NCBI GenBank assembly: GCA_024276425.1
Contig: JAJRXF010000095.1
Span: 20,207 to 84,206 of the forward strand
Reading direction: 5' to 3'
DNA: 64,000 nucleotides
DNA from: Actinomycetes bacterium
Lineage (GTDB): Bacteria; Actinomycetota; Acidimicrobiia; Acidimicrobiales; SZUA-35
The notes beneath the pieces were generated by a model. The model saw only the letters and a list, made by a program, of their open reading frames with translations, did not search any database and had not been told where the DNA came from. Every line of letters begins with the position of its first letter. Position 1 is the stretch's first letter. Shown here in pieces: positions 23,113 through 47,631 of this stretch. Both the position numbers and the translations under genes were made by a program.

Positions 23113-24750
23113 ATGGACCGAACTCTCCTGGCCCCTCCACTACCCTCATCGGTGGCCACTAGCTCCGAATCCTTCGCCAAGAACCGGGCAGACATGCTCG
23201 ACCAACTGCAGGTCATTGACGAACTCCTGGATGAGGCGGAGGCCGGCGGCGGTGAAAAAGCAATGGCCCGCATGCGCTCGAGGGGCAAGCTTCCCGTCCG
23301 GGAGCGCATCGCCAACGTGCTTGACCCTGACACCCCCTTCTTAGAGATCAGCGCGTTAGCTGGCTATGACTCCGACTACACCATCGGAGGCGGCATGGTG
23401 GTCGGAATCGGCATCATCGCCGGGACCGAGTGTGTGATCCTGGCCAACGACCCCTCCGTTCTCGGGGGGGCACTGACCCCCTACGTTCTAAAGAAGTGGA
23501 ACCGAGCACTGGAGATCGCTCGAGATAACCACATGCCCTATGTCAGCTTTGTCGAATCGGCCGGAGCGGACCTGCGAGTCGAAACTGGAGGGGGACGCAA
23601 GGCCAACACCAACCACTTCGCCGAGAGCGGTCGTTTCTTCTATGAGATGATCGAACTGTCGAAGATGGACATTCCCTTGGTCTGTGTTGTCTTCGGCTCT
23701 TCGACCGCAGGCGGTGCCTACCAACCAGGCCTGTCTGACTACAACATCGTGGTGAAGGACCAGTCGAAGATTTTCCTGGCTGGGCCTCCGCTGGTCAAGA
23801 TGGCCACCGGCGAAGAGTCCGACGATGAGACCCTGGGCGGGGCCAAGATGCACGCCGAGATCTCGGGCCTCGGCGACTACTTCGCCGAGGATGAGATGGA
23901 CGCCCTGCGATTGTGTCGCGAGGTGGTCTCACACCTCAACTGGCGAAAACCTGGGCCCGAACCGTCCCTCCTTGGGGATGACCCAATCTATGACCAGGAA
24001 GAACTGTTGGGTCTGGTGAGCCAGGACCTTCGCTCCCCTCTTGATGTCCGGGATGTCATCGCCCGAGTGGTCGACGGTTCTCGTTTCGAGGAGTTCAAGA
24101 CGCGGTATGGACCGACACTGGTCTGTGGATGGGCATCGATCCACGGCTACCCCATCGGCATCCTCGGCAACAACGGAGTTCTTCACCCCGAAGCAGCCGA
24201 AAAGGGTGCCCAGTTCATCCAGTTGTGCAACCAGATTGATGTCCCATTGGTGTTCCTGCAGAACATCACCGGCTTCATGGTTGGAAAAGACTTTGAGCAA
24301 GCCGGGATCATCAAAAAGGGATCCCAGATGCTCAACGCGGTCTCCAATTCAACCGTTCCCCATCTCACCGTGATAATTGGATCGTCCTATGGTGCCGGCA
24401 CCTACGGAATGTCCGGTCGGGCCTTTGGCAACCGATTTACCTGGTTGTGGCCAACGGCCAAGGTTGCCGTCATGGGTCCAAAGCAGATCGCCGGGGTGAT
24501 GTCGATGGTGCGCCGAGGACAAGCTGCCCGCAAAGGCATCGAGTTTGACGAAGAAGAGGACGCTCAGATCGTGGCCATGGTGGAAGAGGTTCAGGAAAAG
24601 GGTTCGCTGGCCTTGGCCGCAACCGGAGCGGTGAGCGACGACGGAATCATCGACCCCAGAGACACCCGCACGGTTCTTGGTATCTGCCTCTCGGTGGTTC
24701 GCAACACGCCCATTGAAGGCGCCGACGGCTATGGAGTATTCCGGTTATGA
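23113..24750 (+). CDS. Acyl-CoA carboxylase, carboxyltransferase (beta) subunit, AtuC/MccB-like
   Basis: 545 residues in two crotonase-fold halves. The N-half has RGKLPVRERIANVLDPDTPF, the oxyanion loop VFGSSTAGGAYQPGLSDY (about 195-212) and IFLAGPPLVKMATGE; the C-half has NITGFMVGKDFEQAGIIKKG and GSSYGAGTYGMSGRAFGNRF (about 425-444). This is the layout of methylcrotonyl/geranyl-CoA carboxyltransferases. With the biotin subunit it transfers carboxyl groups to a branched unsaturated acyl-CoA. It starts the operon and is followed by the biotin subunit with a four-base overlap. AtuA downstream favours a terpenoid acyl-CoA, but the loop sequence is diverged from characterised GCC and MCC, so the substrate is open. 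Confidence 0.85.
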   Translation: MDRTLLAPPLPSSVATSSESFAKNRADMLDQLQVIDELLDEAEAGGGEKAMARMRSRGKLPVRERIANVLDPDTPFLEISALAGYDSDYTIGGGMVVGIGIIAGTECVILANDPSVLGGALTPYVLKKWNRALEIARDNHMPYVSFVESAGADLRVETGGGRKANTNHFAESGRFFYEMIELSKMDIPLVCVVFGSSTAGGAYQPGLSDYNIVVKDQSKIFLAGPPLVKMATGEESDDETLGGAKMHAEISGLGDYFAEDEMDALRLCREVVSHLNWRKPGPEPSLLGDDPIYDQEELLGLVSQDLRSPLDVRDVIARVVDGSRFEEFKTRYGPTLVCGWASIHGYPIGILGNNGVLHPEAAEKGAQFIQLCNQIDVPLVFLQNITGFMVGKDFEQAGIIKKGSQMLNAVSNSTVPHLTVIIGSSYGAGTYGMSGRAFGNRFTWLWPTAKVAVMGPKQIAGVMSMVRRGQAARKGIEFDEEEDAQIVAMVEEVQEKGSLALAATGAVSDDGIIDPRDTRTVLGICLSVVRNTPIEGADGYGVFRL

Positions 24751-26837
24751 CGCATGCTCAGGTTATGACGACCCCCTTTGACTCTGTGCTGGTTGCCAAC
24801 CGCGGCGAGATCGCAAGGCGAGTATTTGCTACTGCCCGCTCAATGGGCATGGTTTGTGTGGCCGTATTTACCGATGCCGACGCAGACGCCGCCTTCGTTC
24901 GGGAGGCCGATGAGGCCATTCGGTTGGCCACTGGCTATCTCGACGGCGACGCCATCATTGGCGCGGCAAAGCTCAGCGGCGCCCAGGCCGTTCACCCCGG
25001 CTACGGGTTTCTGTCAGAGAACGCTAACTTTGCTCGCTCCGTACAGGCCGCCGGACTGATTTGGGTTGGCCCGACACCGGACATCATCGCCACCATGGGA
25101 GACAAGATCCTGGCCAAGGAGGCAGCACTGGCTGCGGGACTGCCGGTGCTGGACAGCTATGACACCGAATCGCTGACGGGAGAATCGACCGAACTCATTC
25201 GCTTCCCAGTCTTGGTTAAGGCAGCCGCCGGTGGCGGCGGCAAGGGAATGCGAGTGGTCCAGTCGGCGGACCAACTGGATGAGGCCATCGCTTCGGCCAG
25301 TCGAGAGGCAGACAAGGCCTTCGGGGATAGTCGGGTCTTTGTCGAGCGCTACGTGCCTCGAGCTCGCCATATCGAGATCCAGATTCTTGGTGACGCCCAT
25401 GGCAATCTTGTCCACCTCGGCGAGCGTGAATGCTCCATCCAACGACGCCATCAAAAGATCATCGAGGAATCGCCCTCTCCGGTTGTGAGCCCCGAGCTTC
25501 GCCAAGCCATGGGCAACGCGGCCCTCGCCCTGGCCAGTTCTCTTAGCTACTCCTCCACCGGAACCGTTGAATTCCTTCTCGACGAGGACAGCCTTACCGG
25601 GGACAGCATTACTGAAGGTGGTGCAGAGTTTTTCTTTCTGGAGGTCAACACGAGATTACAAGTTGAGCACCCGGTTACCGAGGCCATCACTGGCCTTGAT
25701 CTTGTTCGTGAGCAATTGCAGGTTGCAGCGGGTCAACAACTCAACTTCGACCAGTCGTCGATCGATTTCTTAGGCCATGCCATCGAGGCCCGCCTTTACG
25801 CCGAAGATCCAGCCAATGGCTTCCTCCCCTCGGCTGGCACCGTCGATGTATTCGAACCGGCCGAGACGCCGGCGCTGCGATGGGATGTTGGTATCGAGCA
25901 GGGTTCGGAGGTTGGGGTTCACTTCGATCCGATGCTGGGCAAGGTCATTGCCCATGGCCCCACCAGGGCCGAGGCCGCAGCACAGCTAGCCCGTGGACTG
26001 GAGCGCCTCCATCTCGGTGGGCTCACGACCAACCGCGATTTTCTGGCCGCCACCCTCCGTCACCCTCAGTTCTTGGCCGGGGCGACCACAACCGATTTCA
26101 TTGAACGAGTCAATCCGACCCCCTTGGTCAGTCCCGACGATGTCGTGTTCGCTGCCGTGGCCGGGGCCCTTTGGATGCAGGGTCGACGGGTGGCCGATCT
26201 GGAAGTGCTCCCGAGAGTTCCCAGCGGTTGGCGAAACTCCAAACTGCCCATGGAGCGAACCAGCCTGCTTCTGGAGGACGGTCTGGGCGATGGACTAGGT
26301 GACGGTAGAGATCAAGAGCCAATGGAGGTTCGGTACCGGAGAAATCGGGATGGCTCGTTCTCGGTTCGCAACAGCGCGAACGACAATACCGTCAGCAATG
26401 CGGCCATCAGCAATGCGATCATTCATGCCTGGTCGGCCGAGTGGATTGACATTGAGCTGGATGGCCTTCGCCGAGGGGTTCGAGTTAGCCATACAGCTCG
26501 GGTCAGTCACACGGGTTCGGCGGCCTCGTTCCTGTATGTCCAGACTCCTTCGACCACCCTTCGGTTCCGGATTGAACCTCGGTTTGTGGTGCCGGGGGCC
26601 GATACCGATACGTCCACCCTGCAGGATGGTGGGCTGGTCTCACCCATGCCGGGATCGGTTCTGGAGGTGCGGGTTAACCCCGATGATGAGGTGGTGGCCG
26701 GACAGGTCCTCCTGGTGTTGGAGGCCATGAAAATGGAGCACCCCGTGCCTGCTCCCCGTGATGGCACGGTCAGCCAGGTTCTGGTTGAGGTCGGTCAACA
26801 AGTCGAACTGGGCCTCGTGTTGGTGGAGTTCGAATGA
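24747..26837 (+). CDS. Acyl-CoA carboxylase, biotin carboxylase / carrier (alpha) subunit, AtuF-like
   Basis: 696 residues. Biotin carboxylase domain: VLVANRGEIARRVFATARSMG (start, about residue 14), AVHPGYGFLSENANFA, the ATP-grasp loop AAAGGGGKGMRVV (about 155), ERDCS-type loop read as ECSIQRRHQKIIEESP, and FLEVNTRLQVEHPVTE (about 295). The C-terminus is a biotin carrier with VLEAMKMEHPVPAPRDG, the Lys being the biotin site. The start overlaps the carboxyltransferase stop by four bases. A second in-frame ATG 18 bases later sits in a short direct repeat (GGTTATGACG twice), so either start could be used. It acts with the preceding gene as an alpha/beta carboxylase. Confidence 0.93.
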   Translation: MTHAQVMTTPFDSVLVANRGEIARRVFATARSMGMVCVAVFTDADADAAFVREADEAIRLATGYLDGDAIIGAAKLSGAQAVHPGYGFLSENANFARSVQAAGLIWVGPTPDIIATMGDKILAKEAALAAGLPVLDSYDTESLTGESTELIRFPVLVKAAAGGGGKGMRVVQSADQLDEAIASASREADKAFGDSRVFVERYVPRARHIEIQILGDAHGNLVHLGERECSIQRRHQKIIEESPSPVVSPELRQAMGNAALALASSLSYSSTGTVEFLLDEDSLTGDSITEGGAEFFFLEVNTRLQVEHPVTEAITGLDLVREQLQVAAGQQLNFDQSSIDFLGHAIEARLYAEDPANGFLPSAGTVDVFEPAETPALRWDVGIEQGSEVGVHFDPMLGKVIAHGPTRAEAAAQLARGLERLHLGGLTTNRDFLAATLRHPQFLAGATTTDFIERVNPTPLVSPDDVVFAAVAGALWMQGRRVADLEVLPRVPSGWRNSKLPMERTSLLLEDGLGDGLGDGRDQEPMEVRYRRNRDGSFSVRNSANDNTVSNAAISNAIIHAWSAEWIDIELDGLRRGVRVSHTARVSHTGSAASFLYVQTPSTTLRFRIEPRFVVPGADTDTSTLQDGGLVSPMPGSVLEVRVNPDDEVVAGQVLLVLEAMKMEHPVPAPRDGTVSQVLVEVGQQVELGLVLVEFE

Positions 26838-28657
26838 TGAGCGGGCCGAGCGTCTTACGTGCCACTGACCCGATTCGAATCGCCAACTGCTCTGGCTTTT
26901 ATGGGGACCGGATCTCGGCCGCTTCCGAGATGGTCGAGGGCGGCCCAATCGATGTTCTCACCGGCGACTGGCTGGCCGAGTTGACCATGCTCATCTTGGC
27001 CCGCACCCAGGCCAAGAGACCCGGCGGCGGCTACGCCCGCACCTTCGTCACCCAGATGGAACAGGTCCTGGGGACCTGCCTAGATCGTGGCATCAAGGTG
27101 GTCAGCAATGCTGGCGGGCTCGACCCCGATGGCTGTGCTGAGGCGGTGGCCGAAGTGGCAGACAAGCTGGGGCTCGCACCCAAAGTCGCCTACGTTCGCG
27201 GCGACAACCTGATGGGTCGGCTCGATGAGCTTTCGGCCGCCGGAGTCACGCTCGATCATTTCGAAACCGGTGAGTCATTGTTGGGAGACTCCGAGGCAAA
27301 TTCTCGGTTCATCAGTGCCAATGCCTATCTCGGCTGTTGGGGCATTGTTGAGGCCCTTAACCAGGGAGCAGACATTGTCATTACCGGACGAGTCACAGAC
27401 GCTGCGGTAGTTTGTGGCCCAGCGGCCTGGCACCACGGCTGGGCCCGAGACGATTGGGACGCCCTCGCCGGTGGGGTCGTTGCCGGTCACATTATTGAGT
27501 GTGGAACCCAGGCCACCGGAGGCAACTATTCGTTCTTCACCGAGATCGACAACATGATCCATCCTGGCTTCCCCTGGGCCGAGGTGGCGGCCGATGGCTC
27601 GTGCGTGATTGGCAAACACGACGAGACCGCAGGGGCAGTTACCGAGGGGACCGTTATCTCCCAGCTTCTGTATGAGATCGGTGGACCGACCTACTTGGGT
27701 CCCGACGTCAACGCTCACTTCGACACCATTTCGGTCCACCAGACTGGCCGAGACCGGGTGTTGGTCAGTCACACCAAGGGCAGCCCACCTCCGGCCACCC
27801 TCAAGGTGGCCATGAACGAAATGGGCGGCTTCCGTCAAGATCTTGGGATTGCCCTGGTTGGATTGGACATCGAGGCCAAGGCCAAACTGGTTGATGAAGC
27901 CTTCTGGGCCGCCTGTCCCTATGAGCCTGACGATTTTGCCAGCATTACAACGCGGATCGAACGCACGGACAAACCCGATCCATCAACGAACGCTGAGGCG
28001 GTGGCCCAATGGCGCCTGACCCTCAAGGACCCGGACGAACGTAAGGTCGGTCGAGCAATCTCCAACGCCATGATCGAGCTGGCCTTGGCCACCATTCCCG
28101 GCTTCTACGGCACCAGCGGGGGTCCGGGAGCGGCGAAACCCTTTGGGGTGTACCGACCAGCCCTTATTCCGGCCGACCTGGTGCCACAAGAGGTCACGGT
28201 TCTGGGGGGCCCGACGACCACGGTTGAATCGGTGGCCCCGGACGGAGTAGCGAGTGTTGCTCATGATGTGGTTGAACCGCCAGGACGCCAACCTGCTAGA
28301 TCAGATTCCACAGTCCAGAGGCCGATTGGCTCGGTGATTGGGGCTCGCTCCGGTGACAAGGGCGGGAACGCCAACCTTGGTGTTTTCGTCCGAAGTGACG
28401 AGGCCTGGGATTGGCTCGATGGCTTCCTCACCACCGAGCAGTTGCGAAAGCTCCTTCCCGAAGTGACCGAGCTACGCGTGGATCGGTACCGGTTGCCCAA
28501 ACTGCGCTCACTCAACTTTGTCGTCCACGGCTTGTTGGAGGAGGGCGTTGCCGCCAGCTCCCGGCGAGACAGCCAAGCCAAAAGCCTGGGCGAATGGCTT
28601 CGGGCCAGAGTGGTTGAAATTCCAGAATCTCTCCTAGCGAAAGAACGCACATGTTGA
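26834..28657 (+). CDS. AtuA-like protein (DUF1446, acyclic terpene utilisation)
   Basis: 607 residues. The DUF1446/AtuA domain fills residues about 8-455: RIANCSGFYGDRISAASEMVE is split as IANCSGFYGDR and AASEMVEGG, then DVLTGDWLAELTMLIL, VVSNAGGLDPDGCAEAV and ADIVITGRVTDAAVV. The C-terminal part (about 495-600, GSVIGARSGDKGGNANLGVF) is the AtuA-like ferredoxin-fold region often encoded as a separate gene. In Pseudomonas, AtuA is required for citronellol/geraniol growth, with unknown chemistry. Here it lies between the carboxylase and a nitronate monooxygenase-like gene, overlapping each neighbour, which supports one pathway. Confidence 0.88.
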   Translation: MMSGPSVLRATDPIRIANCSGFYGDRISAASEMVEGGPIDVLTGDWLAELTMLILARTQAKRPGGGYARTFVTQMEQVLGTCLDRGIKVVSNAGGLDPDGCAEAVAEVADKLGLAPKVAYVRGDNLMGRLDELSAAGVTLDHFETGESLLGDSEANSRFISANAYLGCWGIVEALNQGADIVITGRVTDAAVVCGPAAWHHGWARDDWDALAGGVVAGHIIECGTQATGGNYSFFTEIDNMIHPGFPWAEVAADGSCVIGKHDETAGAVTEGTVISQLLYEIGGPTYLGPDVNAHFDTISVHQTGRDRVLVSHTKGSPPPATLKVAMNEMGGFRQDLGIALVGLDIEAKAKLVDEAFWAACPYEPDDFASITTRIERTDKPDPSTNAEAVAQWRLTLKDPDERKVGRAISNAMIELALATIPGFYGTSGGPGAAKPFGVYRPALIPADLVPQEVTVLGGPTTTVESVAPDGVASVAHDVVEPPGRQPARSDSTVQRPIGSVIGARSGDKGGNANLGVFVRSDEAWDWLDGFLTTEQLRKLLPEVTELRVDRYRLPKLRSLNFVVHGLLEEGVAASSRRDSQAKSLGEWLRARVVEIPESLLAKERTC

Positions 28658-29790
28658 CGCGCATCACCGAAGTGTTTGGAATCGATGTTCCCATCCTGGC
28701 CTTTAGTCATTGCCGTGATGTCGTTGCCGCCGTATCCAAGGCCGGGGGCATGGGGGTGTTGGGGGCAGTGGCCCACTCTCCCGAACAACTGGAGATCGAC
28801 CTCAACTGGATCGAAGATGAGATCGGAGACAAGCCCTACGGAGTCGACCTAATCATCCCGGCCAAGTACGCGGGTTCCGATGAGGGCGGCATCACCCGAG
28901 AGAAGCTTGAGGCCCTGATTCCGCCGGGACATAGAGAGTTCCTCCAAGACATCCTCGATCGCTACGGGGTGCCCGAACTACCCGAGGACGATGACGACAA
29001 CCAGGGATACGCGTCCGGAGACAACGGGGCAATCTTCTCCAACGAAAGAGCCGAACCCCAGTTGGATATCGCCCTGGCCCACCGGGCCGCCTTCATCGTC
29101 AACGCCCTTGGTCCACCAACCGAACACATGATCAAACGCTGCAAGGAGGAGGGCCGACTGATTGGGGCACTGGCCGGAAAGGCCCAACATGCCGAGCGTC
29201 ATCAACTGGCCGGGGTTGACATCATTATCGCCCAGGGCACCGAAGCCGGGGGCCACACCGGAGAAATCGCTTCCATGGTTCTGATCCCCGAAATCGTCGA
29301 TGCAGTCGATGTCCCCGTGCTTGGTGCGGGAGGCATTGGCCGTGGCCGCCAAATGGCCGCCGCCATGGCCCTTGGTGCCGAGGGGGTTTGGTGCGGATCG
29401 GTTTGGCTCACCACCGAAGAGGCCGAGACCCATCCCGTGGTCAAGGAGAAGTTCTTGGCCGCCAGCTCGAGTGACACCGTGCGCTCTCGGTCCATCACCG
29501 GAAAGCCTGCTCGCCAGCTCCGCACCGCGTGGACCGAAGAGTGGGACAACCCCGAAACCCCGATGCCGCTGGGAATGCCCATCCAGCCCGCCCTCATCGG
29601 AGCGGCCCAGGTCCGGATCAACCGGGCCGCTCACACCAAGGGTTCGGGGGCAGAGTCGTTGGCCAACTATTTTGTTGGTCAGATCGTTGGCGACATGAAC
29701 AAGTCGAAACCCGCGGCCCAGGTCGTGTACGACATGATCGAAGAGTTCATCGAGGCCACCAGTTCGTTGGCCAAACAGCTGGAGGTTTAG
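28651..29790 (+). CDS. Nitronate monooxygenase / 2-nitropropane dioxygenase family flavoprotein
   Basis: 379 residues of the NMO TIM-barrel fold. Features: VPILAFSHCRDVVAAVSKAGG near the start, GVDLIIPAKY, the FMN-phosphate region QGTEAGGHTGEIASMVLIPE (about residue 190), PVLGAGGIGRGRQMAAAMALGAEGVWCGS (about 222, read in parts LGAGGIGRG and ALGAEGVWCGS). The GTEAGGHTG motif is standard in the family. It overlaps AtuA by seven bases and is followed at two bases by an acyl-CoA dehydrogenase. In such contexts these enzymes more likely act as flavin oxidoreductases on acyl-CoA or enoyl intermediates than on nitroalkanes; that is inference. Confidence 0.85.
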   Translation: MLTRITEVFGIDVPILAFSHCRDVVAAVSKAGGMGVLGAVAHSPEQLEIDLNWIEDEIGDKPYGVDLIIPAKYAGSDEGGITREKLEALIPPGHREFLQDILDRYGVPELPEDDDDNQGYASGDNGAIFSNERAEPQLDIALAHRAAFIVNALGPPTEHMIKRCKEEGRLIGALAGKAQHAERHQLAGVDIIIAQGTEAGGHTGEIASMVLIPEIVDAVDVPVLGAGGIGRGRQMAAAMALGAEGVWCGSVWLTTEEAETHPVVKEKFLAASSSDTVRSRSITGKPARQLRTAWTEEWDNPETPMPLGMPIQPALIGAAQVRINRAAHTKGSGAESLANYFVGQIVGDMNKSKPAAQVVYDMIEEFIEATSSLAKQLEV

Positions 29791-29792
29791 CC

Positions 29793-31013
29793 GTGGACTT
29801 CGACTTCCCGGACGACGATGACCCCCGCCGAACCAAGGTTCGGGACTGGATCGCCGCCAACCCAGACCCGACCGGGAAGGAACTGGCCGAGGCTGGCTAC
29901 GTGGTGCCCCACTGGCCAGCCCCCTACGGTCTGGATGCCGACCCAATGGAACAACTCATCATTGCTGAGGAGCTAGGCAATGCCAGCATTCAGCCGCCCA
30001 AGAACGACATCGGTATCGGCTGGGCTGCCCCAACCATTGCCCTGGCTGGAACCGAGGAGCAAAAGGCTCGCTACCTGCCGAAGATTTTCAGCGGTGAGGA
30101 GATCTGGTGCCAGATGTTTTCCGAACCCGATGCCGGTTCCGATCTGGCCAATCTGGCCACGCGGGCAGTTCGCGATGGGGATGAATACGTCATCAATGGC
30201 TCCAAGATCTGGACGAGTGGCGTACACCGTTCCCAATTCGGGATCCTGATCGCTCGAACCAATCCCGATGTTTCCAAACACAAGGGCATCAGCTATTTCA
30301 TCTGTCCGACCGACTTGCCGGGCCTCACCATGTCACCCATCATCGACATGACGACAGCCCACTCCTTCAACCAGGTGTTCTTCGACAACGTCCGCCTTCC
30401 TGCCTCCATGTTGGTTGGGGAAGAGGGCGACGGCTGGCGCCTCACCAAGGTGACACTGGCCAACGAACGGGTGAGCCTGTCGTCCGCAGGCTCACTGTGG
30501 GGCCACGGGCCGAGCACGGAAATGCTGCTGAACTGCATCCGGGAGAGTGGGGGGATTGCCGATCCCTTGCTTCGCCAGCAGGCGGCAGCCGCTTACATCG
30601 ACGGCGAGGTTCTTCGCCTTAACCGACTGCGCACCTTGAGCGCGCGGCTGGCGGGCAAGACCCCGGGGCCCGAAGCCTCGGTACAGAAGATCATGGCTGA
30701 TGAACATGGCCAACAGGTGATGGAGTTGGCTAAGGCAGTTGCTGGAACCAATGGGATGCTTGCCGGATCCGGGCCCAGCGGCGAGCTGCCACCGGTTGGT
30801 CGGTTGGGGGCCACCGAGGTGAATCCAAGCGGCGACCTGTATCCCGATGTCGACCCGATTTGGCACTACGGGTTCTTGTTTGCTCCCGCCCTGACCCTGG
30901 GCGGCGGCACATTCGCCGTCCAGCGCAACATCATTGGTGAAATGGTCTTGGGCCTAAACCGTGAGCCAAACCTGGAGCAAGGCCTCAGCTGGTCCGAGAC
31001 GCGCCGTTCGTGA
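29793..31013 (+). CDS. Acyl-CoA dehydrogenase (AtuD-like position)
   Basis: 406 residues from a GTG start with GGAGG seven bases upstream; the frame is open further back but overlaps the NMO gene in a different frame. The fold is complete: N-terminal helices, YVVPHWPAPYGLDADPMEQ, the mid domain MFSEPDAGSDLANLATRA and GSKIWTSGVH (flavin contacts), then the C-terminal helical domain. An unusual glycine/proline-rich loop near residues 315-345 (GTNGMLAGSGPSGELPPVG) replaces a shorter turn. It should oxidise the acyl-CoA feeding the carboxylase, or the shortened product afterwards. Confidence 0.9.
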   Translation: MDFDFPDDDDPRRTKVRDWIAANPDPTGKELAEAGYVVPHWPAPYGLDADPMEQLIIAEELGNASIQPPKNDIGIGWAAPTIALAGTEEQKARYLPKIFSGEEIWCQMFSEPDAGSDLANLATRAVRDGDEYVINGSKIWTSGVHRSQFGILIARTNPDVSKHKGISYFICPTDLPGLTMSPIIDMTTAHSFNQVFFDNVRLPASMLVGEEGDGWRLTKVTLANERVSLSSAGSLWGHGPSTEMLLNCIRESGGIADPLLRQQAAAAYIDGEVLRLNRLRTLSARLAGKTPGPEASVQKIMADEHGQQVMELAKAVAGTNGMLAGSGPSGELPPVGRLGATEVNPSGDLYPDVDPIWHYGFLFAPALTLGGGTFAVQRNIIGEMVLGLNREPNLEQGLSWSETRRS

Positions 31014-31026
31014 GTGAGCTGGAGTT

Positions 31027-31662
31027 ATGAGTGAGTTAGAAGAACGGCTCGGGGAAGTACCTCGGCCAAAGCCGGTTTTGAGCCGCGAGGCCGAAGAGGC
31101 GCTGACCGAACGCCAACGGGAGATCCTGGACCAACTGGGAGAAATCTTCCAAAGCGGTTTCGCTTCGCTGACCATGGCCGACCTCGCCGCCAAGCTGGGC
31201 TGCTCCCTCCGCACGCTGTACGGCCTGGCCCCAAGCCGCGATGAACTGGTGATGGTAGTGGTCGATCGAAACCTCTGGGCCGCCGGACGGGTGGCCATGG
31301 CCGCCATTGGGCCCGACATGGAACCACTGGTCGCGTTACGCTCCTACCTTGAGGCGGCCAACCGGGCAGTGGAAAACACCACCGAGGCCTTCGCTACCGA
31401 TACCGCAGCCATGGCCGAATGGTCTGGGCTCGGGGCCAGCCACAACGGCTACTTGGTAGCCATGACCGCCGCTCTGCTGGAACTGGCGGCCGAGCGGGGC
31501 GACATTGGCGATGTCGATGTCGCCGCTACTGCCCATGTGGTGGCCGGACTAGGTAGATCCTTTGCCCAACCGGACATGATTCCCGTCATCCGGTCCAACC
31601 CGACCGCGGCAGCCAATGAGGTCCTCGATCTCTTGCTGGCCGGACTCCGAGCCACTGCGTAG
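31027..31662 (+). CDS. TetR-family transcriptional regulator
   Basis: 211 residues. The HTH lies at about residues 30-75 (REILDQLGEIFQSGFASLTM, then LAAKLGCSLRTLYGLAPSRDEL). The HTH Tyr and Leu pattern SLRTLYGLAPSRDEL matches TetR helix 3 (TLYxYFxSKxEL) with Ala-Pro-Ser for the usual FxSK. The C-terminal helical domain should bind the inducer, probably an acyl-CoA. It is last in the Atu-like operon, 13 bases after the dehydrogenase, with GGAG as ribosome site. The obvious target is the operon's promoter at 23076, but I cannot see a clear operator palindrome there. Confidence 0.88.
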   Translation: MSELEERLGEVPRPKPVLSREAEEALTERQREILDQLGEIFQSGFASLTMADLAAKLGCSLRTLYGLAPSRDELVMVVVDRNLWAAGRVAMAAIGPDMEPLVALRSYLEAANRAVENTTEAFATDTAAMAEWSGLGASHNGYLVAMTAALLELAAERGDIGDVDVAATAHVVAGLGRSFAQPDMIPVIRSNPTAAANEVLDLLLAGLRATA

Positions 31663-44000: not shown

Positions 44001-44495
44001 TCACGAGATATCCCCGGCCGATCGGCGAACTTCGGCCAGGGTGTTGGCGATTTGGACGGTCGGCTCCTCCGGAACTTCTCCGAGCCCAAATCGGATCTCG
44101 ACCATTGACTGGGTGGCCTTTTCTAGGCGGAGTCGACCCTGGGCCGTTATTTTTGCCAGTGTGGCCCGTCGGTCCGTTGGGTGGGCAACTCGTCGCACCA
44201 ACCCATCGGCTTCGAGCCGATCAATGGTGTTGGTCACGCTGGTGGGATGTACCTGGAGCCGCTCTCCCATTTTGCCTAGCGGCAGGGCACCCGACCGAGA
44301 GAAGCTGATCAATGCCAGCGCCTCGTAGCGGGAGAAGGTGAGATCAAAGGGCAGCAAAGCCTGATTTATGCGACCGAGTACAATCTGATGGGCGCGAGTG
44401 ATTGAGGTTGCGGCAGCCATGGCATCAGCCTCTCCCCAACCGCGCCGATCCCAATTCCGTTTCGCTTCCGTTATGAGATCGACAGGATGCTCCAT
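44001..44495 (-). CDS. MarR-family transcriptional regulator
   Basis: 164 residues from ATG at 44495, chosen because TAAGAT lies seven bases upstream (leaderless); the frame is open to 44534. The winged helix is ISFSRSGALPLGKMGERLQV then HPTSVTNTIDRLEADGLVRR, followed by the wing PTDRRATLAKITAQGR. MarR proteins bind small phenolics or acyl-CoAs and repress neighbouring genes. It is followed by the MFS gene and diverges from the mutase operon with a 73-base gap, so both could be targets. Confidence 0.9.
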   Translation of the reverse strand: MEHPVDLITEAKRNWDRRGWGEADAMAAATSITRAHQIVLGRINQALLPFDLTFSRYEALALISFSRSGALPLGKMGERLQVHPTSVTNTIDRLEADGLVRRVAHPTDRRATLAKITAQGRLRLEKATQSMVEIRFGLGEVPEEPTVQIANTLAEVRRSAGDIS

Positions 44496-44502
44496 CGCCG
44501 CT

Positions 44503-44508
44503 ATCTTA
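44503..44508 (-). promoter_or_regulatory. Candidate -10 box for the MarR gene
   Basis: TAAGAT on the minus strand, seven bases before ATG at 44495. No convincing -35 is seen. Confidence 0.4.
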
Positions 44509-44568
44509 GTTCTCGTCAATAGTAGGATGTCCAACTATCTGGCATCAAATGAGTTAGAGGAGTCTCTC

Positions 44569-46212
44569 GTGGACCAGGAACAGTCCAGGGCACAGTCCAG
44601 GAAGAGGTGGCAGACCGAATACGATCGGGCCAAGCTCCGTGATGCCGACTGGGAAACCATGTCTGGGGTGCCCGTCGAGCCGATCTACGGGAACGCTCCC
44701 TACCCGGGCCAGTATCCCTACACCCGCGGCGTTTATGCCTCCATGTACCGATCCCGACTCTGGACAATGCGCATGTTCGCCGGGTTTGGGACTGCAGTTG
44801 ACACCAACCTTCGCTTCAAGGACATCCTGCGCAACGGAGGCGGTGGGCTCTCGACCGCCTTCGACATGCCGACTCTCATGGGACATGACTCCGATCACGA
44901 GTGGTCCATTGGTGAGGTAGGCAAGTGCGGCGTCGCCGTGGACACCTTGGCTGATATGCGGGACCTCTTCGCCGACATCAATCTTGGTGGCGTGTCAACC
45001 TCGATGACAATCAATGGACCGGCCAACATCATCATGGCCATGTACATCGCCAACGCCGAGGAAACAGGAACCGAGCGAAGCAGGCTGGCGGGCACAATCC
45101 AAAACGATCTACTCAAGGAGTATCAAGCGCAGAAGGAGTACATCTTTCCTCCTCGTCCCTCCATGCGCCTGGTTACCGACCTGATCCGGTTCACCTCAAC
45201 CGAGATGCCTCGGTGGCATCCGGTGTCGGTATCGGGTTACCACATTCGTGAAGCTGGTAGCACCGCCGCTCAAGAATTGGCTTACACCCTGGCCAACGGC
45301 TTTGCCTACGTCGAAGCTGCCGTCGCTGCCGGCATCGACGTCGATGACTTTGCCCCGCGACTGAGCTTCTTTTTCAACAGCCACAGCGACTTCTTTGAAG
45401 AGATCGGCAAGTTCAGAGCGGCCAGACGAATCTGGGCGACGTGGATGCGCGAACGGTACGGGGCCAAGGACGAACGCTCCCTGCTATGCCGATTTCACAC
45501 CCAGACCGCAGGAGTGTCTCTAACGGCCCAGCAACCCGAAATCAACATTGCCCGGGTCGCCATTCAGGCAATGGCTGGGGTGCTCGGCGGAACCCAAAGC
45601 CTGCACACCGACGCCTTCGATGAGGCCATGGCGCTCCCCACTGAGGATGCGGCCCGAATCGCGCTTAGGACCCAACAAATAGTGGCCCACGAAACGGGAG
45701 TCGCATCGGTGGCCGACCCCCTAGGGGGCTCCCACTATGTCGAATGGATGACCGACGAAATGGAACGAAGAGCCGAGGCTATCTTTGCTCACCTTGATGA
45801 ACTGGGCGGAGGCTCCATCCTGGAGGGCGTCTTCGCTGGCATTGACAACAACTACTTCACAAGCGAGATCGCCAATGCTGCCTACCGATTCGAACAGAAA
45901 GTTAATGCGGGGAGACGAATCATTGTTGGCGTGAACGACTTCACCGAGGGAGATTCCGAACAACGGGATCTGCTTCGAATCGATCGCACCGTGGAGGAAA
46001 ACCAACTCAAACGACTATCCAATGTCAAGCACGACAGGGACAACAGTGCCGTCCGATCCGCTTTGGACGAACTTGTTGAGGTCGCGCAGGACTCCACCCT
46101 CAACACCATGCCCGCGACCATTAAGGCAGTGCAGTCCATGGCGACCGAAGGCGAAATTGTCGAGGCCCTGCGCGGCGTCTTTGGCACCTACGTCGAGAAG
46201 GCGACCATGTAG
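44569..46212 (+). CDS. icmA: B12-dependent acyl-CoA mutase large subunit, isobutyryl-CoA mutase-like
   Basis: 547 residues from GTG with AGAGGAG seven bases upstream; an ATG at 44527 is a longer option. The TIM-barrel domain matches methylmalonyl-CoA mutase throughout (YPYTRGVYASMYRSRLW, FDMPTLMGHDSDH, SLHTDAFDEAMALPTE), but there is no B12 domain; that is the next gene. Two substrate residues differ from methylmalonyl-CoA mutase. Its Tyr89 (RQYAGF) is Phe here (RMFAGF), and its Arg207 (EFMVRNTY) is Gln here (EYQAQKEY). Phe and Gln at these sites are the known signature of isobutyryl-CoA mutase (IcmA), which interconverts isobutyryl-CoA and n-butyryl-CoA. Confidence 0.82.
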   Translation: MDQEQSRAQSRKRWQTEYDRAKLRDADWETMSGVPVEPIYGNAPYPGQYPYTRGVYASMYRSRLWTMRMFAGFGTAVDTNLRFKDILRNGGGGLSTAFDMPTLMGHDSDHEWSIGEVGKCGVAVDTLADMRDLFADINLGGVSTSMTINGPANIIMAMYIANAEETGTERSRLAGTIQNDLLKEYQAQKEYIFPPRPSMRLVTDLIRFTSTEMPRWHPVSVSGYHIREAGSTAAQELAYTLANGFAYVEAAVAAGIDVDDFAPRLSFFFNSHSDFFEEIGKFRAARRIWATWMRERYGAKDERSLLCRFHTQTAGVSLTAQQPEINIARVAIQAMAGVLGGTQSLHTDAFDEAMALPTEDAARIALRTQQIVAHETGVASVADPLGGSHYVEWMTDEMERRAEAIFAHLDELGGGSILEGVFAGIDNNYFTSEIANAAYRFEQKVNAGRRIIVGVNDFTEGDSEQRDLLRIDRTVEENQLKRLSNVKHDRDNSAVRSALDELVEVAQDSTLNTMPATIKAVQSMATEGEIVEALRGVFGTYVEKATM

Positions 46213-46213
46213 G

Positions 46214-46663
46214 ATGAGCGACCGAGATCCAAAAGAAGAACAGGCCATTGCCGAGGCGGCCGCCTACGGCCCAATGCGGGTGATTCTGGCCAAGGTCGGT
46301 TACGACGGCCACGACCGCGGTGTGAAGATCGTGGCAAGAACTCTCAGAGACGCTGGCTTTGAAGTCATCTACCTTGGCCTCCGCCAAACAACTTCGGACA
46401 TCGTCTCAGCCGCCCAGCAAGAAGATGCAGATGCGGTTGGGCTTTCTCTCCACAATGCTGGCCACATGACATTGGCACCTCGAATGGTCGAGGCCCTACG
46501 AGAGGCCGAGTTGGACATACCGGTGGTTGTGGGTGGCATTATCCCCGATGAGGATATTCCCCAACTGCTCGATGGTGGCGTTGCTGCAATACTCACTCCG
46601 GGGGCCTCGTCCGATGAGGTGGTACGGGCGATGCGTGACGCCATTCTCGCCTCCAACCGGTGA
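46214..46663 (+). CDS. icmB: B12-binding small subunit of the acyl-CoA mutase
   Basis: 149 residues from ATG at 46214, two bases after the large-subunit stop. The Rossmann-like cobalamin domain shows GYDGHDRGVKIVARTL, containing DxHxxG with the cobalt-binding His (about residue 30), then GLSLHNAGHMTL (SxL motif) and VVVGGIIPDEDI (GG motif). It completes the mutase with the preceding subunit. The arrangement, separate large subunit, small subunit and MeaB chaperone, is found for Icm and Hcm mutases. Confidence 0.9.
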   Translation: MSDRDPKEEQAIAEAAAYGPMRVILAKVGYDGHDRGVKIVARTLRDAGFEVIYLGLRQTTSDIVSAAQQEDADAVGLSLHNAGHMTLAPRMVEALREAELDIPVVVGGIIPDEDIPQLLDGGVAAILTPGASSDEVVRAMRDAILASNR

Positions 46664-47631
46664 GCCTACGTGGGCTTAGCCCCGCCCAGGTTCTGGCCCG
46701 CGCCCTCGAGGGCGACCGTCACGCAACCGGGAGGCTACTCACCTTGATCGAACGCGGTGGGGAAGGAGCAGACGAGGTTGCATCCCTCACCCATCCAATG
46801 GCAAAGGGGGCCCACGTCATCGGCATCACGGGTCCTCCAGGAGCAGGCAAGTCAACCTTGGTGGGCCAACTAATCAAGGAGGCCGTGCGCCATGGTGCTC
46901 GACCGGCTGTTCTCGCCGTCGACCCATCATCGCCACTGAGTGGGGGGGCCATCCTCGGTGACCGGATTCGGATGGATGATCCCGAATCAGATTGTTTTAT
47001 CCGCTCGATCGCGACCCGAGGTCACTCCGGGGGACTTGCCCTCGCGGTACCCGGTGTGGTTCGGGTCTTTGATGCCTGCGGCTTTGGCCCCATCATTATC
47101 GAAACCGTTGGTGTTGGTCAGGTCGAGGTCGATATCACCGCAGCGGCAGACACCACGGTGGTCGTCATGAATCCAGGTACTGGTGACGCCGTGCAGGCCA
47201 ACAAGGCCGGACTTCTTGAAGTGGCCGACATTTTCGTGGTGAACAAGGCCGACCGCCCGGGAGCAAACGAGGTCCGTGGCGACCTCCAAATCATGCTCGA
47301 CCTCAGTCACATGACCGGTCGCGAAGATCATTGGGGTCGACGACCTCCCGTCGTGATGCTCAAAAGTTTGGAAGGAACTGGCTTCGGTGAACTCTGGAAC
47401 GAGATACAAACGCATATCGAGTTCCTTGGCATCGGCTCAGAACGAGAACGGCGTCGACATCTCCGGCAACGAGCCGAAGTCGAAGCCCGGATTGAACAGA
47501 TTGTTCATCAAAGTGTGCAACAGGTTCTTGACTCCCAAGAGGGTGGGCGGGTCCTTGAGCGACTTCGGAAACTGCAGGATTCTCCGGCGAGCGCCGCCAA
47601 AGAACTCGCCCGTTTACTTCTGGGGTCCTGA
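46660..47631 (+). CDS. meaB: Mutase-associated G-protein chaperone (MeaB/ArgK)
   Basis: 323 residues from GTG, overlapping the B12 subunit stop by four bases. G-motifs: Walker A GITGPPGAGKSTLVGQL (about residue 56), LAVDPSSPLSGGAILGDRIRM (switch region, about 88), ETVGVGQVEVDI (G3, about 145), VVNKADRPGA (G4 NKAD, about 188). MeaB loads and protects the B12 cofactor of acyl-CoA mutases using GTP. Its place here supports a working mutase rather than a relic. Confidence 0.93.
   Translation: MSLRGLSPAQVLARALEGDRHATGRLLTLIERGGEGADEVASLTHPMAKGAHVIGITGPPGAGKSTLVGQLIKEAVRHGARPAVLAVDPSSPLSGGAILGDRIRMDDPESDCFIRSIATRGHSGGLALAVPGVVRVFDACGFGPIIIETVGVGQVEVDITAAADTTVVVMNPGTGDAVQANKAGLLEVADIFVVNKADRPGANEVRGDLQIMLDLSHMTGREDHWGRRPPVVMLKSLEGTGFGELWNEIQTHIEFLGIGSERERRRHLRQRAEVEARIEQIVHQSVQQVLDSQEGGRVLERLRKLQDSPASAAKELARLLLGS

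Follow-up and report, generated by a model that had tools for sequence, protein, structure and literature searches.

A candidate AtuA-type operon for branched acyl-CoA degradation with a gamma-carboxylase outside the methylcrotonyl- and geranyl-CoA carboxylase clades

Introduction

Two gamma-type acyl-CoA carboxylases, methylcrotonyl-CoA carboxylase (MCC) and geranyl-CoA carboxylase (GCC), are the closest described relatives of the enzyme considered here. MCC carries Phe191 and a three-residue insertion in its carboxyltransferase (CT), GCC carries Gly162, and swapping these residues alters substrate preference (Jurado et al., PMC4673880). Phytosterols lose their C24 branch in a route of carboxylation at C28, followed by hydration and an aldol cleavage, with the carboxylase left unnamed in the review describing this route (PMC6678751). 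Here, we analyze a six-gene run combining a gamma-type carboxylase with an AtuA-family protein in a 64,000-nucleotide stretch of DNA (the window; assembly GCA_024276425.1, contig JAJRXF010000095.1, positions 20,207 to 84,206) from an actinomycete of the order Acidimicrobiales, whose genome (G000) comprises 3.95 Mb and is 96% complete. Computation shows which genes are present and how they are linked, the class of the CT, the fold of AtuA and where the hydratase is encoded. Sequence comparison provides strong evidence that the CT lies outside both the MCC and the GCC clades, and we consider it likely that the operon, complete in the genome with one gene relocated, serves to strip a branched acyl-CoA of its beta-alkyl branch, following a strategy of the Atu/leucine type.

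Results

In the Protein Data Bank (PDB), the window CT matches PaMCC-beta (3u9r) most closely, followed by 9tps, human MCC, AccD1, 9yx0 and PaGCC (5ikl), and its closest named matches (82–84%) derive from metagenome-assembled genomes of Acidimicrobiaceae and Acidimicrobiales. A CT tree was calculated from 38 CTs with one propionyl-CoA carboxylase (PCC), leaving out the distant CTs OWN_C185 and OWN_C123 of the same genome; PDB reference sequences were taken from printed alignments, and a larger CT tree was built from which the PCC and a Roseibium row on a long branch were omitted as well. In the CT tree, eight MCC-type rows form one clade (support 99/98) and four GCC-type rows (Pseudomonas GCC, Acinetobacter, Sphingobium and Achromobacter) another (100/100), both of which exclude the window CT. 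It falls into an eight-row clade of its own (100/100), hereafter clade W, nested among actinobacterial AtuA-associated CTs. Rooted with the single PCC, these actinobacterial CTs, clade W included, join GCC at 98/89, and the approximately unbiased test rejected (p 0.003) a topology that unites them with MCC and leaves GCC outside. There is moderate evidence that the CT is positioned on the GCC side of the tree. The phylogeny, suggested as a check in the initial annotation of this locus, hence yields no firm grouping with either characterized enzyme.

The active-site loop was scored in 116 CTs. Clade-W loops comprise 17–45 residues ending in HF[AGS]-x-[STA]-G in 88/88 sequences, those of MCC-type CTs 13 residues ending in ...HF-G, and those of GCC and the other actinobacterial AtuA-CTs 10–11 residues ending in Gly, or in three cases in Ala. 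The 18-residue loop of the window CT reads ...HFAES-GR and does not have Gly at the position of MCC Phe191. Its Phe is invariant in clade W (88/88), but stands three residues further from GR than in MCC and is at most a candidate equivalent of Phe191. A loop unlike those of GCC and MCC had been pointed out in the initial annotation; with 18 residues compared with 10 and 13, this holds, and the loop marks a large class. An N-terminal helix extension fits the gamma-carboxylase lineage as well, as alignments to PaMCC, human MCC, 9tps and GCC start at CT residues 17–30. Alignments to PCC chains start mostly at 36–51 and that to AccD1 at 44, so that the start, read from sequence only, is no clean separator. 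Judged by tree and loop, the carboxylase is a member of a third, widespread class apart from MCC and GCC; its substrate is therefore probably neither 3-methylcrotonyl-CoA nor simple geranyl-CoA.

It is highly improbable that the operon encodes a second methylcrotonyl-CoA carboxylase of the leucine type, although PaMCC is the best single PDB match of the CT and a Phe is kept close to where MCC has Phe191: the CT is shut out of the MCC clade, its loop is longer, AtuA is found instead of HMG-CoA lyase, and the genome has a separate MCC-like cluster. CT domains occur at six places in the genome. Two of these, where contig C3 ends and contig C182 starts (L106, L105), are apparent halves of one MCC-like CT at a contig break, followed by a biotin carboxylase (BC) and an acyl-CoA dehydrogenase (ACD); this cluster supplies a separate candidate enzyme for leucine degradation. 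We also regard it as unlikely that the operon encodes a true geranyl-CoA carboxylase within a merely odd-looking pathway for acyclic monoterpenes (citronellol, geraniol). AtuA, the gamma-type CT with its GCC-like motif SSTAGGAYQPGLSDY and the placement on the GCC side of the PCC-rooted tree are all compatible with such a pathway, yet the CT lies outside the GCC clade (100/100), the Phe-containing HFAES in a loop of the 17–45-residue type replaces the 10-residue Gly loop of GCC and other actinobacterial AtuA-CTs, and the best PDB matches of the ACD are steroid enzymes.

The distribution of clade W was scanned using one genome per species, and the best 80 loci were kept. Among the matches listed, clade-W CTs occur in Acidimicrobiia, the Geodermatophilaceae Blastococcus (B. 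massiliensis AP3, L134) and Modestobacter (M. excelsi 1G6, L175), Myxococcota/Deltaproteobacteria and Thermoanaerobaculia, and likewise in SAR86, other gammaproteobacteria and alphaproteobacteria; the set is rich in near relatives, SAR86 above all. Genes were scored as present at 55 bits for AtuA, ACD and TIGR03084, 45 bits for HMG-CoA lyase and crotonase, and 150 bits for the nitronate monooxygenase (NMO) family (55 bits throughout in an earlier layout pass), and a full flank was defined as at least 2.5 kb upstream and at least 6.5 kb downstream of the CT. Clade-W operons have the CT–BC pair in common, AtuA and a crotonase are usual, and ACDs, TetR, a TIGR03084-type protein and NMO are often present. 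A second CT–BC pair lies near the clade-W operon in L177, L196 and L205. In six further stretches (L053, L054, L056, L068, L069, L072), AtuA adjoins NMO and CT/BC are not included, the CT being located elsewhere in several of these genomes. Literature searches, judged by titles and abstracts, found nothing on this system, neither for AtuA with nitronate monooxygenase nor for such carboxylases in SAR86 or Acidimicrobiia.

Within the six-gene run, the open reading frames (ORFs) include no hydratase, ligase or short-chain dehydrogenase (SDR) and no AtuB, AtuG or AtuH gene, in line with the initial annotation. Its further suggestion, an NMO-family flavoprotein standing in for the hydratase, does not hold. 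A crotonase is also present in 17 of the 18 NMO-bearing loci (18/80 related loci, across phyla), and relatives have hydratase and flavoprotein genes in one block: L137 has the order CT-BC-AtuA-TetR-hydratase-ACD-NMO, L152 is alike with a P450 interposed, and L211 and L212 carry an AtuA-TetR-hydratase-ACD-NMO block in stretches that do not include CT/BC. Of the genes missing from the window run, the hydratase is thus found nearby in relatives, as is a ligase or SDR in some.

A candidate for the hydratase is encoded on another contig. The operon hydratase of genome G030 retrieved G000:C110:49241-50002 from the window genome with 50% identity (E 4e-66; next best E 4e-30), and in the reverse search the best matches of the C110 hydratase were the operon hydratases of G030 and G058, a reciprocal best relation. 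NF005879 is the best NCBIfam model for the C110 and the G030 protein alike, below cut-off in each case. In a tree of 63 rows, built from a chosen subset of loci and 12 of 19 own-genome crotonase matches, the C110 hydratase is the sole one of these 12 inside a clade of mostly operon hydratases (91/94), where it forms a subgroup with G001, G010 and G013 (100/99). Most likely, as this phylogeny suggests, the hydratase gene moved away in this group and was not lost. Because of this relocation, and because NMO co-occurs with crotonase in relatives, the flavoprotein would not be a hydratase replacement. A hydratase-less Atu pathway, with the flavoprotein in place of AtuE and the dehydrogenases, would match the content of the window operon, yet the crotonases of the NMO loci, the intact hydratase-bearing order of L137 and L152 and the own ortholog on C110 render it very improbable.

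The AtuA protein, encoded by a single gene in the genome, was modeled with AlphaFold2 (pLDDT 92.7, pTM 0.92). A Foldseek search of the PDB returned 9evf_A, a citramalate lyase with ADP and pyruvate, as the only match below E 0.001 (E 4e-20, TMt 0.72), the next match following at E 3e-3, and the C-terminal domain resembles 9evf_B (prob 0.93, TMt 0.67, E 0.16). A single-sequence search against the PDB gave no match. In a profile search, CmlA (9erq, annotated as ‘AtuA family protein’ and ‘citramalate lyase, subunit A’) was found at E 4.5e-4, which lends weak support; the few designed-repeat proteins returned with it match by chance.

A second observation concerns loci where AtuA was not found. 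In 9/80 loci, each of this kind, an HMG-CoA-lyase-like (HMGL-like) gene lies upstream of the CT; NF004283 is its sole match of two NCBIfam models tested, below cut-off. REGLQ replaces the usual RDGLQ in these genes. Of 58 fully flanked loci, 46 contain only AtuA and 6 only the HMGL-like gene, 6 lack the two and no locus combines them (Fisher 2e-5, a post hoc value, as the pattern was first noticed in the same loci and then counted); across all 80 loci, incomplete flanks included, the corresponding counts are 57, 9, 14 and 0. The citramalate lyase fold and the HMGL-like gene in AtuA-less loci give two separate reasons to accept, tentatively, a lyase role, and AtuA is predicted to be a carbon–carbon lyase.

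The run itself, assigned via ORFs and Pfam/NCBIfam matches, comprises genes for CT, BC, AtuA, flavoprotein, ACD and TetR on one strand (Table 1). The initial annotation had described these genes as a single overlapping and Atu-like run. We confirm the genes and their positions, with overlaps of 4–7 bp at all junctions from CT through ACD and TetR 13 bp downstream of ACD, and the Atu-like character is evident from AtuA and the gamma-type carboxylase. The ACD starts with a GTG (29787) that overlaps the NMO stop codon. In the BC subunit, the translation contains the biotinylation motif EAMKM (Lys662), and the MCC-alpha BT domain PF21139 scores 29.4 bits, not reaching the cut-off of 31. The TetR_N match of the regulator is weak (23.0 bits, just below cut-off); an operon-adjacent TetR is kept in the relatives' loci L045, L046, L051, L060 and L064. 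Gene order at L045 of the nearest relative, G001, is identical, so that the run reflects conservation rather than chance. An operator search 5' of the CT found a single 11-nt overlapping palindrome, which is uninformative. Further downstream (window positions 44398-47631) lie a methylmalonyl-CoA-mutase-family gene and MeaB, and a similar pair adjoins AtuA in the Sphingobium locus L107.

Table 1 Coordinates of the operon features in the window and loci with an HMGL-like gene
Feature	Location	Strand	Support
Carboxyltransferase (beta) subunit, gamma-type acyl-CoA carboxylase, clade W	23113..24750	+	PF01039 E 6.6e-129
CT active-site loop, residues 155-172, RVETGGGRKANTNHFAES, 18 aa; MCC Phe191/GCC Gly162 selectivity region	23575..23628	+	
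Biotin carboxylase + biotin carboxyl carrier protein (alpha) subunit	24747..26837	+	PF00289, PF02786, PF02785, PF00364
AtuA-family protein, A + B parts fused, predicted C-C lyase	26834..28657	+	PF07287 E 1.5e-159, PF23544 E 2.4e-18
FMN flavoprotein, nitronate monooxygenase/FabK superfamily	28651..29790	+	PF03060 E 5e-52
Acyl-CoA dehydrogenase	~29787..31013	+	Pfam acyl-CoA dehydrogenase N/M/C domains
TetR-type regulator	31027..31662	+	TetR_C_27 and TetR_N, each slightly below cut-off
HMG-CoA-lyase-like gene 5' of CT	L178, L181, L186, L189, L193, L194, L197, L201, L202		HxH + GGMGGCPY kept

The nearest solved relatives of the flavoprotein are the FabK/NMO structures 5gvh and 3bo9, with which it has the GGHxGE motif in common, and it is probably an accessory enoyl-CoA oxidoreductase. 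A Tsukamurella homolog (46% over 380 aa) adjoins crotonase, AMP-ligase, OB-fold and thiolase-domain genes and lies not far from an annotated steroid 3-ketoacyl-CoA thiolase gene; from known gene order, we take these neighbors to be the equivalents of fadD19, echA19 and ltp3/4. An assignment of the flavoprotein as IpdC was rejected, as its alignment to the protein that occupies the IpdC position in Tsukamurella covers only 141 aa. A second NMO-family gene of the genome (43%; L208 on contig C34) lies among two ACD-like genes, one crotonase gene and one SDR gene with CYP-like genes on both sides, and no ipd cluster was found at this locus. For the ACD, the steroid acyl-CoA dehydrogenases 4x28 and Tcur3483 (6wy9/6wy8) are the best PDB matches, Glu227 being aligned with Glu247 of 4x28_A; 4x28 is presumably FadE26-FadE27 and the aligned Glu presumably the catalytic base.

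These resemblances bear on whether the enzyme is a carboxylase of C24-alkylated sterol side chains, acting on the gamma carbon (C28) of a 24-alkyl-24-en-26-oyl-CoA. Such a role would fill the described step that has no named carboxylase and is chemically of the same reaction type (PMC6678751), and it is consistent with an ACD closest to steroid enzymes in the PDB, with the ligase, crotonase and thiolase-domain genes that lie next to the 46% Tsukamurella homolog in the vicinity of a steroid thiolase, and with the occurrence in three carriers, one of them a SAR86 genome, of a CoA transferase resembling the steroid ring marker IpdA (52–63%). We nevertheless judge it quite unlikely, as IpdA is absent from G000, G001, G010, G030 and G042, the actinobacterial cleavage is assigned to Ltp3/Ltp4 and not AtuA (PMC6678751), and the steroid label of the ACD comes from best PDB matches only. 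In the 96% complete genome G000, IpdA, the sole steroid ring marker scored, was not found at E 1e-10. A steroid-thiolase search gave matches of ~50% in all eight genomes and did not discriminate between them.

Discussion

The likely role of the operon in beta-alkyl branch removal can be laid out as a sequence of steps, for which we infer reaction order, AtuA reaction, flavoprotein role and substrate. The ACD would yield a 3-alkyl-2-enoyl-CoA, whose gamma carbon the biotin-dependent CT/BC enzyme would carboxylate to a 3-alkylglutaconyl-CoA. Water would then be added by the crotonase hydratase, its gene being located on another contig here and inside the operon in most relatives. AtuA, which belongs to the same family as citramalate lyase CmlAB, would cleave the resulting tertiary 3-hydroxy-3-alkylglutaryl-CoA into acetate (or an acetyl unit) and a product open to beta-oxidation. 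The NMO/FabK-family flavoprotein may act as an accessory enoyl-CoA oxidoreductase, and TetR would regulate the operon.

Several points weigh against this reading. The position of the CT on the GCC side of the tree hangs on one very long PCC branch, and we know of no clade-W enzyme that has been assayed. The C110 hydratase is not adjacent to other operon genes and is linked to them through phylogeny only, and the two SAR86 operon crotonases in the tree fall outside the operon-hydratase clade. Two changes on the CT tree can suffice to account for the exchange of AtuA and the HMGL-like gene, so that the locus count overstates replacement, and six fully flanked loci carry neither lyase. Read from the tree, the AtuA/HMGL pattern is one or two historical replacements, not dozens of independent ones.

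The substrate may be a beta-branched isoprenoid- or sterol-type acyl-CoA. The initial annotation, partly supported overall, had considered an unusual branched acyl-CoA, and a CT outside both characterized classes supports this as a possibility. More tentatively, and with rather less than even confidence, clade W could be a third functional class of gamma-carboxylases with a new substrate, possibly acting as C28 carboxylases of C24-alkylated sterols or on another bulky isoprenoid acyl-CoA. Uncultured SAR86, Acidimicrobiia and Myxococcota would use this class, and AtuA and the HMGL-like enzyme would be interchangeable lyases. The HF[AGS]-x-[STA] loop provides a clean sequence signature of a large gamma-carboxylase class among abundant marine and soil bacteria that have not been cultured. 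Its presence suggests that these bacteria may draw on a carbon source of branched isoprenoid or sterol type. Both the citramalate lyase fold and the HMGL-like gene make the proposed lyase role of AtuA directly testable.

Among known systems, the Pseudomonas atu operon (AtuA/AtuC/AtuF, GCC) resembles the window operon in AtuA, carboxylase alpha and beta subunits, ACD and regulator, and in the hydratase that relatives' operons contain. It differs in that the window CT lies outside the GCC clade with another active-site loop, and that the window run has an extra NMO-family flavoprotein, no AtuB/AtuG/AtuH-type genes, and a hydratase encoded on another contig and outside the AtuE branch of the tree. 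The MCC/liu operon has domain layout, gamma-carboxylase lineage and a Phe in the loop in common with the window operon, whereas the window CT is found outside the MCC clade with a loop of 18 residues rather than 13, AtuA occurs instead of HMG-CoA lyase, and the genome has separate MCC-like genes. The AtuA-carboxylase clusters of Rhodococcus, Mycolicibacterium, Nocardia, Dietzia and Nonomuraea likewise combine CT, BC and AtuA, mostly with ACD and hydratase and often with a TIGR03084 protein; unlike the window operon, they have a GCC-type 10-residue CT loop and no NMO found in their loci, and they form the sister group to the window clade. Citramalate lyase CmlAB (9erq/9evf), finally, matches AtuA in the fold of subunit A over most of its length, in a C-terminal domain similar to subunit B and in GR..D and EC positions common in the alignment, although A and B are fused in the window protein, identity is 15%, and a CoA thioester substrate is expected for AtuA.
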